IMG/VR virus record: IMGVR_UViG_3300050015_000237
Coordinates: 1 to 46,059 of that record
DNA length: 46,059 bases
Strand: one strand, 5' to 3'
Source of the DNA: a virus
Shown here: positions 27,817 to 38,776 of the stretch, one piece after another
Layout: each line of letters starts with the position of its first letter
Position numbering within the stretch: the first letter of the stretch is position 1
The notes under the pieces: model-generated
Database searches by the model: none
The model's input: the letters and a program-made list of their open reading frames with translations, nothing else
What the model was told of the DNA's origin: nothing
Program-made: the position numbers and the translations under genes

Positions 27817-27960
27817 ATGGAAATCCTACTCCAGCACAATAAGCGATACCTAGTAGAAGTGAACTGACGCAAGGGTTGGATCTACTGCAAGACCATAAAG
27901 AAGATGATAAATTTACTCACTTACTGGAACTATGATGCTGGAATTAAAAGAACTACTTAA
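27817..27960 (+). CDS. Small hypothetical protein
   Basis: 47 aa, basic (MEILLQHNKRYLVEVNGRKG), overlapping the start of the methyltransferase gene by 29 bases. Function unknown. Confidence 0.4.
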
Positions 27961-29236
27961 TAAAGTGATCTGCGGGGACTGCTTATCTGTAATGCGTGGA
28001 CTACCTGATGGAAGTATAAAGTTGATATACATAGACCCGCCGTTTGGATTCAAATGAGATGAAAAATTTGGTATGCCTAAATGGAAAGACACGAACAACA
28101 AATCTGATTGTAAACTAATAGACCAATTCAATATAAAAGATTGAGATAAAAGCTATTTACATTTTATGTATAATAGACTTGTAAGAATGAGAGAGCTTTT
28201 GTCGGATGACGGAAGTATTTACTTACATTGTGATTGGCATAAAAATCATCACATAAGATGTTTGATGGACGAAGTATTTGGTGAAGATAATTTTATAAAT
28301 GAAATAGTATGGTGATACCATACAGGGATGAGAGTGAAGACATATTTTAATCGTAAACACGATACATTACTTGTATATTGAAAGACCAAGCAATTTGTAT
28401 TTAATGCACAATATGAAGAGAGGATTTATCCATTCAAACCATCTATGCAAAGTGATGGAGGGGCAAGCATTGAAGAAATAATGAATAAAGATTGAGTTCC
28501 CACGGGGATATTCAAATCAAATCTTTTGTGTAGAGATGTATGGGATATATCCCAAGTATTTAATATGAGCAATGAATATTCAGCATATCCGACGCAGAAG
28601 CCCGAAGCCTTATTGGAAAGGGTAATCAAAGCCAGTAGTAATCCCTGAGATATAGTTATGGATTGTTTTATGGGAAGTGGGACTACTTGTGCAGTAGCTC
28701 AAAAACTTGGTAGAAGATGGATAGGTTGTGATATAAATCAGAATGCGGTGGATATTGCCAGTAAAAGATTAAGAAACATACCACATACAAGTATTATCGG
28801 AAATACCGAAAATAGGGTAAAAAAAGCGGAGACAAGCACAAATTCAAGTAGATCGGGGATTTCCCAATCTACTACGAAAACCTTTGTCAAACCTACAAAC
28901 TTTGATATAGAATGATATACAAAAGAAGAAGAGGAAATCATAAAGAATGCGTGAATTAGCGATAAACAACATATTTCTTATGTAAGAAAATTGTGCGAAG
29001 GAGTAATAGATGTTTGTTTGAATAATTGATTTTGCTATCCATTATTATTATCTGAATTTTTAGAACGAGGAAAGTTTATAAATAAAAGATGATATAGTAT
29101 TAGAAGATGTTGATTATGTGATAATAATTGCATAGAGCATAAAGATAATCCTAATCCAGTATGTTTTGAATGCAAATGATACCACGATTATATTTTAGAC
29201 AAAGTGGATTATGTATGTTGAGTTAAGAAAGACTAA
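27932..29236 (+). CDS. DNA methyltransferase 1 (beta-class, adenine-N6 or cytosine-N4)
   Basis: 434 aa. Motif IV is DPPFGF at residue 35 and motif I is [12 protein letters not shown] at residue 246, the reversed order of beta-class amino-methyltransferases. [15 protein letters not shown] precedes motif I as usual. After residue ~330 comes an extra domain with many cysteines ([26 protein letters not shown]), perhaps zinc-binding and used for DNA recognition. No partner restriction gene is present, so it likely protects phage DNA from host restriction. Confidence 0.88.
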
Positions 29237-29302: not shown

Positions 29303-30043
29303 ATGAACTTAGAAGAATTTAAGAATCAGATTATACAAGGGGATTGCTTGATTGAAATGCAGAAGATACCTGATAAGAGTATTGATATGATACTTTGTGA
29401 TTTACCTTATGGAACTACTGCTTGTTCTTGGGATGTTGTTATTCCTTTTGAGCCATTGTGGGAAGCATATAAAAGAATAATCAAAGACAACGGGGCAATA
29501 GTTTTAACAGCAAGTCAACCATTTACAAGTGCCTTAGTTATGAGTAATCTTGATATGTTTAAGTATGAAATGGTATGGTATAAAGATAGACCAACTTGAT
29601 TATTTACAGCAAAAATACAGCCAATGAAATATCACGAAAATATATTAGTATTTGGAAATTGAAAATTATGTTATAACCCACAAATGCGAAGAGGAAATAA
29701 AAATAATAGTGTTTGAAAATGAATAAGCAAATCAGACCATTATGATTTACCAATACTAACAGATAGAAAAGATAGTGATATGAAATATCCAAAGAGTATA
29801 TTAGAATTCAAAAGAGAACATCCACCAATACATCCAACTCAAAAACCAGTAGCACTATTTGAGTATCTTATCAAAACTTATACAAATGAAGGAGATTTAG
29901 TTTTAGATAATTGTATAGGTTCAGGAACAACAGCCGTAGCTTGTAAAGAATTATGAAGAAACTTTATAGGTATAGACCTGAGCCAAGAATATGTAGATAT
30001 AGCAAACGAAAGACTAAAACATACTACAATATCTTTATTTTAA
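29303..30043 (+). CDS. DNA methyltransferase 2
   Basis: 246 aa. Motif IV is [12 protein letters not shown] near residue 33, then [18 protein letters not shown] and [18 protein letters not shown] (motif I) near residue 210, ending [16 protein letters not shown]. The DLPYG and W-D pattern is common in adenine-N6 enzymes of phages. The C-terminal ~25 residues closely match those of methyltransferase 3 at 37979. It contains five or so TGA glycines. Confidence 0.88.
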
Positions 30044-31243: not shown

Positions 31244-31639
31244 ATGTCTAAAACGAGCAAAATTGAAGAGATCGTAAAGATCAAAGAGCGAGAAGGAGAC
31301 AAAGGCACAGTCTTCTATTTTACTGTAAAGATGGAAAACTGAGACGAGTACCCTATCAAAAAGGGTAAGATGAAGAAAGACTGATACACCGTAGGTCAGG
31401 AACTAAACTACAATGTGGAGAAGGACTGAGAGTACGACAAAATCTTCGTAGTAGAGCCTCAGAGAGAGTTTAAGGGATATACTCCAGCTCCCAAAAACTA
31501 TCCAGCAGACTTTGTATCTATGGGTATGGCATTTTGTAAAGATCTTGTAGTAGCAGGAAAAGTTGAATACAAGGATCTAAATAAGTGTTTTGATAATGTA
31601 TATGGTTTAATGATTGACAAACTATTGGGATGAAAATAG
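31244..31639 (+). CDS. Possible OB-fold DNA-binding protein
   Basis: 131 aa. The first 70 residues alternate beta strands and charged turns (GTVFYFTVKMENGDEYPIKK, YTVGQELNYNVEKDGEYDKI), as in OB-fold single-strand-binding proteins; the rest is helical. It lies in the early region near replication genes. The OB assignment is weak. Confidence 0.4.
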
Positions 31640-32157
31640 ATTGGATGGATATACCATGATATGTATGATTGTATAAAATATCTAACCTATGAACAGTAGA
31701 AAGTTTTGTAAGATGATGAATAATGAAGAACAAAATAGCTTGAGCGTGATATCATATCGTTTGATTACATAAAGATAAAAAGAATCGTAATTATTATATT
31801 CATAGACTGGTTGCAGAAGCATTCATACCTAACCCAGATAATAAACCACAAGTGAATCATATAGATTGAGTAAAAACAAATAATAAAGTTGAGAATTTAG
31901 AGTGGTGTACTCAGTGAGAAAACAATACTCACGCATATAGATTATGATTAAGGGTGCATTGGAATATATGAATGTTCTGATTAAAGAATCCTAACGCTAA
32001 AGGTATAATACAATATAATAAGCACTGATATTTAATAAGAAAATGGGATTATATGAGAGAGATAACTAATGAATTATGATATAAAGAGCCATGAATTTGT
32101 AATTGTTGTAAGTGAAGATCAAAAACATCACATGACTTTATCTGGAAATACGCATAA
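31630..32157 (+). CDS. NUMOD4-type HNH homing endonuclease
   Basis: 175 aa. NUMOD4 start (MDIPGYVGLYKISNLGTVES), HNH_3 core ([38 protein letters not shown]) and a C-terminal NUMOD1-like helix-turn region ([20 protein letters not shown]). About 15 Gly are TGA. It starts inside the stop of the preceding gene and appears inserted in an early operon. Confidence 0.88.
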
Positions 32158-33654: not shown

Positions 33655-34227
33655 ATGATAGAAACACGGAAATCAATTAAAAACTATGAATGAATGTACG
33701 AAGTAAGTAATTTGTGAAACATAAAATCATTGAAAAGGTTTGTAATAAGATGAAATAACTGATATTTTACTGAACAAAAAATACTATCGTTTGGAATAGA
33801 CAACAATTGATATTGTGGTGTATGATTGTGTAAGTCATGAAATAGAAAATCTTATCGTGTGCATAGATTAGTCGCAGAAGCCTTTATCGTAAATAAAGAA
33901 AATAAACACACAATTAACCATAAAGATTGAAATAAACAAAATAATAGAATAGATAATCTTGAGCGAATGTCATACGGAGAAAATAATAAACATTCTTTTG
34001 ATTTTTGACTTAAGAAACCATCACAAGCATTTTTATGAAGGTTTTGAAAAGATCATAATCGCAGTAAAAAAGTTAATCAATATACATTAGAATGAGAATT
34101 TATTAAGACACGATGAAGTTTTATGGATATACAAAGAGATTTGTCATTATGCAGGCAAATGGTATGATTATGCTGTAAATGAATATATAAACAAGCGTAT
34201 TGATATAAACGAAAATTTGTTGATTAG
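33655..34227 (+). CDS. NUMOD4-type HNH homing endonuclease
   Basis: 190 aa. NUMOD4 start (NYEGMYEVSNLGNIKSLKRF), HNH core ([38 protein letters not shown]) and a C-terminal NUMOD1-like segment (VNQYTLEGEFIKTRGSFMDI). Very AT-rich. It is inserted between two genes that are normally adjacent, as expected for a mobile gene. Confidence 0.88.
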
Positions 34228-34254: not shown

Positions 34255-35745
34255 ATGTTAGAAAAACTCACATCGAAACAAGAAAAGCTGATAGTAAATG
34301 TCAGAGATAAATATCTCAAAGCATTCTTCTGATACAAGAAGATGGATAAGAAAGCAGTAGAGAAATGAATAAAAATGATGTATTGATTAGCTTGATTAAA
34401 GAAGCCTGAGATTATATATCTTCAATCCCCCTTAGGTGTTCAGTATTGTGCTAATTTATTGCAGTCAGTTAAAGTATGATGAGACCAAGTCAGAGACCAA
34501 GTCAGAGACCAAGTCTGAGACCAAGTCAGAGACCAAGTCCGAGCCCAAGTCAGAGCCCAAGTCCGAGCCCAAGTCAGAGCCCAAGTCAGAGCCCAAGTCA
34601 GAGACCAAGTCAGAGCCCAAGTCTGAGACCAAGTCTGAGACCAAGTCAGAGACCAAGTCAGAGACCAAGTCTGAGACCAAGTCTGAGACCAAGTCAGAGC
34701 CCAAGTCCGAGCCCAAGTCAGAGACCAAGTCTGAGACCAAGTCTGAGACCAAGTCTGAGACCAAGTCAGAGCCCAAGTCCGAGCCCAAGTCAGAGACCAA
34801 GTCCGAGCCCAAGTCAGAGCCCAAGTCTGAGACCAAGTCTGAGACCAAGTCTGAGACCAAGTCAGAGACCAAGTCCGAGCCCAAGTCAGAGCCCAAGTCA
34901 GAGCCCAAGTCTGAGCCCAAGTCTGAGACCAAGTCCGAGCCCAAGTCAGAGACCAAGTCTGAGACCAAGTCAGAGACCAAGTCAGAGTCCAAGTCAGAGA
35001 CCAAGTCCGAGCCCAAGTCAGAGACCAAGTCCGAGCCCAAGTCAGAGCCCAAGTCAGAGCCCAAGTCTGAGACCAAGTAAAAAAAAGTGATATGAAATTT
35101 TATGATCGGTGTTCTTATGGGGAATGCTATGATTTATCACGGGTAGGATTTTATGATTACTTCCAACAAATAGGACTCAAGATAAATAAAGACATAAAAA
35201 AAAGATTTAATATATTCAGAGATATGATATTATGATGAGTATTTACGATGCTACAATTCAAAAATGTATGTATAGTCTCAGAGAATCCAATAAAAATATG
35301 TAGAGATGAAAGGGATAGATTGCATAATGAAGAATGATTTGCTATTGAATTTAGGGATTGATATGTACTTAATTATCTACAATGAGTAAATATACCATAC
35401 GATATGTACGATAAGATAGTCAATGATAAGATGAAACCGCAAGATATATTCAAGATAGAGAATGCCGAATTAAGAAGAATAGCTTACGAATATATGGACA
35501 AGGCAAAGATGAAGAAGTTGAAAGATTATAAAGTATTAGATAAATCAAAGGATCAATACAATAATAAAATGGCTATTATAGAGTTTAAGGTAGATTGATT
35601 TGATAAACCCTTTAGATATTACCAATGTATTTGTCCTAGTTCTTGACGTGTATACTTTTTAGAAACAGAAGATATAACTTGTGAGAAAGCGAAAATGGCA
35701 TCTTTTTGATTGTCTAATAATATTTATTTTGATGTCGAAGCATAA
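34255..35745 (+). CDS. DUF6745-like protein with giant (D/A)QV(R/G) repeat
   Basis: 496 aa in one frame when TGA is Gly. Residues 1-76: LTSKQEKLIVNVRDKYLKAF then KPEIIYLQSPLGVQYCANLL, as in DUF6745-type proteins. Residues 77-275: about 50 copies of a 4-residue unit DQVR, AQVR or DQVG. Residues 276-496: YDRCSYGECYDLSRVGFYDY, VCIVSENPIKICRDERDRLH, GFAIEFRDGYVLNYLQGVNI, ENAELRRIAYEYMD and CICPSSGRVYFLET, again matching the family. Related proteins carry shorter x-Q-(L/V)-x repeats. Function of the family is unknown. In the other two frames the repeat gives false SETK or RPSQ reading frames. Confidence 0.8.
34483..35079 (+). repeat. 12-bp tandem repeat, about 50 units
   Basis: The unit is G-M-C-CAA-GTC-N-G-A (M = A or C; the 10th base A, C or T). 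Only two positions vary: the second base of codon 1 (Asp or Ala) and the first base of codon 4 (AGA/CGA Arg, TGA Gly). Unit length is a multiple of three, so copy-number change keeps the frame of the host gene. Confidence 0.95.
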
Positions 35746-37972: not shown

Positions 37973-38007
37973 AGAGAGATGGAAGAGAAAGCTACTAAGA
38001 AGAATGA
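37973..38007 (+). repeat. 35-bp direct repeat, copy 1
   Basis: It spans the start codon of methyltransferase 3 and recurs at 38791-38825 with one mismatch (base 29). Confidence 0.85.
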
Positions 38008-38776
38008 ACTAGAGCGGAATAAAATCTATTGTGCTGATTGTTTAGAACTAATGAAAGATATAGATGATAATTCTATTGATTTAACAGTAACATCACCACC
38101 ATATGATAATCTAAGGACATATAACTGATTTGCTTGGGATTTTGAATGAATAGCTAAAGAATTATATAGGATAACAAAGGATTGAGGTGTTGTGGTTTTG
38201 GTGGTTTGAGATATGACAGAAAGGTTTTGTGAAAGTATGACATCATTCAAACAAGCATTGTATTTTAAGGAGATAGGATTTAATCTATTAGATACAATGA
38301 TATATTACAAGCAAAACTATGCACCTGCATATCCTACATTGAGAAGATACGCCAATCAATTTGAGTATATGTTTGTGTTTAGTAAGGGTAAGCCCAAGAC
38401 ATTTAATCCTATACAAATGGAGAAAGTAAGAAATAAAGAAGAAAAAGTTTGATATAGGCAGAAAGATTGAAGTATAATAAGAAAGACAAAAGAAATCGGT
38501 AGAGAAACAAAAGATGCTAGTAATGTACGAGAATATGCTGTTGCTTGATGAAATGGTACAGGGCATCCAGCGGTATTTCCTGAGAAACTAGCTGAAGACC
38601 ATATCCTATCTTGGAGCAACGAATGAGATTTAGTATTTGATCCTTTTATGTGAAGCTGAACAACAGCTAAGATGGCTAAGATGAATAATAGAAACTTTAT
38701 CTGATGTGACATAAGCCAAGAATATGTAGACATAGCAAATAAGAGATTAGAAACAACAACAGTAAGCCTATTTTAA
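37979..38776 (+). CDS. DNA methyltransferase 3 (TSPPY type)
   Basis: 265 aa. Motif IV TSPPYDNLRTYNGF near residue 40; motif I DPFMGSGTTAKMAK near residue 222, whose two glycines (225 and 227) are both TGA, the best single proof of the recoded TGA. TSPPY is typical of cytosine-N4 and some adenine-N6 enzymes. The end ([20 protein letters not shown]) resembles methyltransferase 2. The gene is flanked by 35-bp direct repeats. Probably anti-restriction. Confidence 0.88.

Follow-up and report, generated by a model that had tools for sequence, protein, structure and literature searches.

Variable four-residue arrays of phage DUF6745 proteins, in fused and separate form

The window analysed here is a complete virus record of 46,059 nucleotides (IMG/VR virus record IMGVR_UViG_3300050015_000237, positions 1-46,059). 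One of its genes places a long tandem array of twelve-base units between two conserved domains, in a frame that is open only if TGA is a sense codon. This raises the question of what such a protein might do with dozens of four-residue units (tetrads) that differ from each other at fixed positions. The features relevant to it are as follows:

34255..35745, + strand: DUF6745-family gene, 496 residues, whose frame requires TGA to be sense (TGA = Gly, code 25)
34255..34482, + strand: N-terminal family domain, residues 1-76, helix-helix-strand, with a '..SP..' motif at 58-59 (by homology to relatives)
34483..35082, + strand: tandem array of 50 twelve-base units encoding [R/G]-[D/A]-Q-V tetrads (in-frame count and TRF)
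35083..35742, + strand: C-terminal DUF6745 domain, residues 277-496 (PF20530 match)
35335..35337, + strand: TGA codon corresponding to Gly361, Gly in 36 of 37 relatives
33655-34227: HNH/NUMOD4 homing endonuclease gene, immediately upstream of the array gene
31630-32157: HNH/NUMOD4 homing endonuclease gene
27932-29236: N6/N4 DNA methyltransferase gene, the first of three
29303-30043: N6/N4 DNA methyltransferase gene
37979-38776: N6/N4 DNA methyltransferase gene

Reading frame, flanking domains and neighbourhood

Between 34255 and 35745 on the + strand there are 29 in-frame TGA codons, and neither TAA nor TAG occurs until the end of the frame, which bears out the proposal of the first-pass annotation that a single 496-residue frame exists if TGA is read as sense. 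In an alignment with 37 relatives, the TGA columns 369 and 377 are Gly in 35 of the 37 each; since these columns and column 361 are thus nearly always Gly, the sequence comparison supports the reading of TGA as Gly in this phage. These three in-frame TGA codons accordingly fall at conserved Gly positions, as would be expected of a code-25 (TGA = Gly) phage. Across 24 ORFs of the window, TGA accounts for 393 of the 805 Gly codons, and the stops are TAA (18) and TAG (6). Phages of Absconditabacteria and Gracilibacteria that use code 25 are already known (PMC10746230). Elsewhere in the window, the frame of a TnpB-like IS605 OrfB transposase (PF01385, PF07282; 22693-23880, + strand) needs 11 TGA codons read as Gly.

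Both ends of the protein had been ascribed to DUF6745, and both indeed belong to the family, but the Pfam model covers the C-flank only. The whole protein matches PF20530 (DUF6745) over residues 334-419 with an E-value of 1.1e-14 (54.7 bits, gathering cut-off 27), a match that takes in neither the N-domain nor the array, and the C-flank alone does so with 3.2e-15 (56.4 bits). Against the phage relatives, the best match of the C-flank has an E-value of 1.4e-20. The N-flank was matched by no Pfam model in our scan; about 35 phage relatives have a homologous N-domain (the best match in a small database, to L046, has an E-value of 2.6e-9), and the N-flank is a separate conserved domain of the family. 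The window protein has the N-domain ending in an SP motif ahead of the array or linker that typifies the phage subfamily. Within the C-domain, His357, Asp368 and Asn403 are invariant in 38 aligned sequences, and the DUF6745 core pattern RLH..GPA..RDG..HG..P aligns with the window protein, with the D, G, N and E/RR (N..E.RR) positions kept and a departure at GPA, which reads GFA. A back-translated search with the C-flank alone returned no match, and no mention of DUF6745 or of the repeat strings was found in the literature searched.

Unlike the window protein, the DUF6745 members of Streptomyces and Deinococcus are without an array and adjoin genes of the STM4011-4015 families; on Deinococcus/Streptomyces plasmids, DUF6745 genes (L152 3359-8360, L006 and L009) lie next to STM4011-STM4015 (radical SAM, hydrolase and others). 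The bacterial genomes G006 (Candidatus Obscuribacterales), G136 and G179 hold 11, 7 and 8 DUF6745 matches, respectively, and the copies that were read have no clean array.

The region of the array gene contains methyltransferases and glycosyltransferases, with the terminase farther on, and in relatives the DUF6745 gene neighbours a replication initiator (a mycobacterial prophage), an integrase or a uracil-DNA glycosylase (Microcystis phages). These neighbours, in the window and the relatives alike, suggest that an accessory or early role is likelier than a structural one. They also bear on the idea that the protein sits on the virion or cell surface, with the array acting as an adhesin or a decoy that is shaped by selection on host range. 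Surface proteins often have fast-varying repeats, and the window does encode glycosyltransferases; yet the gene stands among homing endonuclease and methyltransferase genes, follows the replication initiator in the mycobacterial prophage and lies beside the uracil-DNA glycosylase in the Microcystis phages, and its conserved N-terminus belongs to a folded domain. We regard a surface role as very improbable.

The array in the window and across the family

TRF reports 49.8 copies of a 12-bp unit at 34481-35078 (matches 91%, score 874); the array has a G+C content of 55% against 36% for the whole window; the other open frames over it, on both strands, are shadows of the repeat. Counting each unit from its Asp/Ala codon, codon 2 is CAA in all units and codon 3 is GTC throughout except in the last unit, whereas codon 1 is GAC (28), GCC (21) or GTC (1) and codon 4 is AGA (25), TGA (15), CGA (9) or, in the last unit, AAA (1). 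Variation at only two bases of the unit, as first described, thus holds for the two sites apart from a single unit with Val, but the second base is not two-state (Arg/Gly): it takes the three states A, T and C, and the change between AGA and CGA is synonymous. The two sites are linked over the unit border, with TGA followed by GAC 14 times and by GCC once, and CGA followed by GCC nine times and never by GAC.

The first-pass annotation further held that the Gly option is itself created by TGA. All 15 Gly residues of the array are encoded by TGA, but the option as such does not originate with TGA; in relatives using the standard code, the matching position is occupied by Gly, Arg or Trp, through GGG, AGG, CGG and TGG. 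The recoded phage has just Arg and Gly at this variable residue, its T variant giving Gly and not Trp.

An initial alignment-based search of viral contigs yielded 57 relatives, many of which have tetrad arrays at the identical place, from the SP motif to the GQHDxxW start of the C-domain. The units vary by phage (XDQV/XAQV, XDQL/XGQL, XDSV/XASV, XSSL, XSAV, XDSL/XVSL). The tetrad array is a habit of the family, more general than had been supposed at first. Our survey comprises 124 distinct arrays of 8-85 units each; the 50 units of the window lie near the top, yet arrays of 58, 58, 62, 83 and 85 units occur, and the array can no longer be called an extreme expansion. The window's own unit was not found in the other viral contigs searched. 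The array of one relative (L065 3491-4600) mixes four-residue units (GDQV, YNQV) with three-residue ones (AQV), which makes it informative on how the repeat may fold.

The variation is concentrated at two positions. Averaged over the 124 arrays, the heterozygosity of unit bases 1-6 is 0.63, 0.14, 0.04, 0.06, 0.44 and 0.04, and that of bases 7-12 is 0.02, 0.01, 0.016, 0.015, 0.005 and 0.024. The two most variable bases are 1 and 5, i.e., the first base of residue 1 and the second base of residue 2, in 102 of the 124 arrays, and also in 58 of the 73 arrays not found via the DNA pattern. Among 3545 units, residue 1 is G in 1131, R in 1044 and W in 790; residue 2 is mostly D or A, the alphabet of the relatives being mostly D/A/G/S. 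The silent bases 6, 9 and 12 are nearly fixed inside arrays and different between arrays, which is the mark of concerted evolution.

Diversity-generating retroelements introduce variation at fixed codon positions of a phage protein, and the tetrad arrays resemble them in this focusing of variation. However, just two of the unit's adenine positions vary and whole units are gained or lost, which led us to reject this mechanism; no reverse transcriptase was detected among the scanned window proteins.

The arrays turn over in both length and order, with the proviso that many contigs end within the array and many assemblies are short-read, such that array order and length may be wrong. Four mycobacterial prophage records have flanks identical at 333/333 and 647-648/648 bases where comparable; three of them have complete arrays, of 46, 19 and 62 units, and in the remaining record the contig begins inside the array. 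Nocardia farcinica IFM 10152 and NCTC 11134 have flanks that are about 97% identical and quite different arrays, one without GDQV and the other largely WAQV-GDQV. In the window's own clade, L178 and L192 have flanks identical at 237/237 and 768/771 bases and arrays of 30 versus 35 units in a different order. The one-unit difference between L023 and L024 (GA|RA|RD) is explained by a single 12-bp duplication in another register. Two records from one Nocardia strain, L007 (739-1929) and L275, are set apart by a frame break inside the array, where an annotated start lies within the repeat; this break is either a sequencing error or a real indel.

Fast turnover in 12-bp steps is what would be expected if the array were a minisatellite evolving neutrally in a permissive linker, growing and shrinking by slippage under selection on the reading frame alone; likewise, the linker can be as short as about 15 residues, and array-less cores are common. 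Nevertheless, across differing arrays the silent sites hardly vary and two amino-acid-changing sites do, a combination that would be hard to obtain by neutral slippage alone. Moreover, tetrads also stand alone as capped genes and in overlapping operons beside array-less cores (see below), and the decayed arrays of cyanobacterial chromosomal members (L082, L086, L105) retain the period of four, with Leu still at every fourth residue and period-4 stretches that persist without clean DNA repeats. We therefore judge a neutral origin improbable.

Separate tetrad genes beside array-less cores

Our DNA-pattern scan also picked up tetrad-only ORFs lacking both DUF6745 flanks. These stand-alone ORFs are about 50-130 residues long and arranged in rows; their products start with MKSVKKQV, MNQVGYQV, MISVKDQL or MTPIKDQV and frequently end in EQTR, KKELR or EET. 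In many phages with an array-less DUF6745 core, they form sets of 2-11 small, frequently overlapping genes that adjoin it. For instance, L194 has seven overlapping tetrad genes followed by an array-less core, most of their products being 65 residues long (a cap, 13 units and a cap), while contigs 3300002835_000416 and 3300025889_000291 have 11 and 9 tetrad genes, respectively, on the same strand. The 79 units of L194 comprise 22 dipeptides, and because every dipeptide seen at least three times has a single codon pair, the units appear to have been copied intact. This trans form, with separate tetrad genes beside array-less DUF6745 cores, is new here.

Within the stored flanks of up to 4 kb that the neighbour test covered, tetrad genes lie near 0 of 64 array-bearing cores and 16 of 77 array-less cores (Fisher p 5e-5, kinship ignored). 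In a reverse search starting from the tetrad-gene cap, an array-less DUF6745 core was recovered in 10 of 12 usable loci. In two further array-less phages, a diverged tetrad stretch lies at a distance of 12-13 kb, the control with the reversed pattern yielding 0 in 48 records; several array-less phages have no tetrad gene in the available record, which may be incomplete. When the cis, trans and none states are placed on a 117-row tree of the C-domain, at least 24 changes of state are required. The trans label requires 10 changes, and well-supported branches force at least 5 of these. When a stand-alone tetrad protein served as a tblastn query, isolated phages gave no match, perhaps through low-complexity masking.

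As tetrad genes lie beside a share of the array-less cores and beside none of the array-bearing ones in the test, the array may act either in cis or in trans. The occurrence of a module fused in some genomes and as separate neighbours elsewhere would be a classical sign of functional partnership.

This distribution also bears on a further alternative, namely that the array sets the distance from the N to the C domain, as a length ruler or spacer. In HsdS, twelve-base tetrapeptide repeats (TAEL) between two domains set the half-site spacing (PMC3874165), and the window array resembles those of EcoR124I/II in its 12-bp tetrapeptide unit between domains and its whole-unit changes. However, TAEL comes in 2-3 units of one sequence, as opposed to the 8-85 variable units of DUF6745 arrays, a range far beyond a fine ruler, and no trans action would be possible for a spacer, yet array-less cores have separate tetrad proteins. 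Pfam and NCBIfam scans of the window protein revealed no HsdS target recognition domains. Thus, a spacer seems highly unlikely.

Candidate functions of the tetrad module

The nearest working analogue is the Rpn system, and it is on account of this analogue, together with the cis form here and the trans form elsewhere, that we propose a partner-specificity module. Each Rpn repeat combines a hydrophobic residue with three that are charged or Gly; the repeats are encoded by 12 bp, are hypervariable in number and occur in the toxin (the long protein) as well as in the antitoxin (the short one); an extra repeat in one partner abolishes pairing, and one in both restores it (PMC10327210). The tetrad family is like Rpn (RpnL/RpnS) in its hypervariable 12-bp four-residue repeats, present in a long and a separate short protein, in the variation of repeat number among near-identical relatives and in the single hydrophobic residue per unit. 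The two differ in the unit (KGIE versus X-X-Q-V), in gene layout, as RpnS arises by translation from within rpnL whereas the tetrads have several genes of their own, and in their carriers, as Rpn defends bacteria whereas the tetrad/DUF6745 carriers are mostly phages. No Rpn (YhgA-like) nuclease domain was detected in the window protein in Pfam and NCBIfam scans up to an E-value of 1, and these databases revealed no sequence relationship to Rpn, HsdS or any other characterized system.

By this analogy, we tentatively favor the reading, at a likelihood a little short of even, that the array is a recombination-diversified tetrad module that sets partner specificity and is paired with the DUF6745 core. 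An X1-X2-Q-V module would work with the two-domain core either fused to it (cis) or as small neighbour proteins (trans). Residues 3-4 of the tetrad would provide a constant frame, while residues 1-2 would carry the variation (R/G and D/A in the window, mostly G/R/W and D/A/G/S in the relatives). The length and order of the array would change rapidly as 12-bp blocks, in whatever register, are duplicated or lost, and the two variable residues would also be re-paired in this way. The array would then present an Rpn-like partner-specificity surface, with repeat number deciding which long and short proteins pair, and DUF6745 would be the constant effector, probably acting inside the infected cell. 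We infer pairing or recognition as the function of the array. On the other side, about half of the complete cores sampled have no cis array; the array is thus dispensable for the core, which counts against a pairing module. So do the several array-less phages with no tetrad gene in the available record, the possible errors in arrays from short-read assemblies and the low-to-middling confidence of the predicted array helices (see below); a strict four-residue period, moreover, gives an alpha helix no straight hydrophobic face.

A long solenoid or helical rod had been suggested for the repeat, with structure prediction as a check; the prediction gave helices of low-to-middling confidence. In the AlphaFold model of the window protein, based on 38 sequences, the N and C domains are confident (pLDDT 87-95 for most of the N-domain) and the array helices have a pLDDT of 43-77; that of L021 is the better one overall, with a mean pLDDT of 87 and an array at 57-72 along most of its length. 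Both models split the array into two long helices. Foldseek comparison of the two models with the PDB gave a best E-value of 0.64, dominated by the long helices, with no fold match.

These models weigh on a different possibility, in which the array binds a changing molecule of host or phage, and not another copy of itself, through a surface that can be diversified, for example a beta-solenoid with Gln-Val stacked inside and the variable residues outside, comparable to TALE or leucine-rich repeats. Such a surface would fit with the two variable residues of each unit and their restricted alphabet, in which W, R, Y, G, D and S are prominent, as well as with the shuffling of intact units in L194 and the many arrays rich in poor helix formers (GSSL, GSAV, HGAV). 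Yet AlphaFold predicts helices in two members, the solved analogue Rpn is helical, and a wholly different order despite near-identical flanks is awkward for one precise target. We consider this binding surface unlikely.

The partner-specificity reading has a wider form, which we offer as conceivable though less likely than not: that the DUF6745 core and a recombining tetrad repertoire, ranging from a fused array to cassettes of up to 11 genes, constitute an undescribed and widespread phage system for evolvable recognition or a self/non-self pairing code, kept despite TGA recoding. Four-residue repeats of 12 bp are already known to provide partner specificity in Rpn and DNA-site spacing in HsdS; the tetrad unit described here belongs to the phage side and to an unrelated family, varies far more, and is present, fused as well as separate, at well over a hundred loci. 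Should the pairing reading prove true, this would be a fast-evolving molecular code that is readable from sequence and directly testable, and would offer a first handle on DUF6745, a Pfam family of unknown function. The recoded phage would then have kept the Arg/Gly variation of such a code, with TGA for every array Gly.

Several other database matches trace to repeat composition. A PADLOC nicking endonuclease match of the window protein (1e-11) falls largely in the repeat and looks compositional; a PADLOC type I specificity match of the relative L010 (4e-4) lies within the repeat and reflects composition, as do the EnY2, DUF668, GvpQ and PHROG matches to the window array. A tblastn match to an unannotated stretch of the Blattabacterium plasmid pMADAR_001 (L271 62-380) is a 12-bp array (GCAGGTACGTAC x 26.6) readable as (RTQV)n, and was set aside as a relative on account of its differing unit and unannotated place. 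Finally, tetrad proteins for which PHROG returned no match occur in a third context, at L177 13148-13426(-), L208 4623-4997(-) and L215 14346-14627(-), where QV tetrad arrays are joined to a different short C-domain (ATSYWAIKVVLGLPIKHWFFDFLKLG...GKAKVFGKxGKYLGEY).
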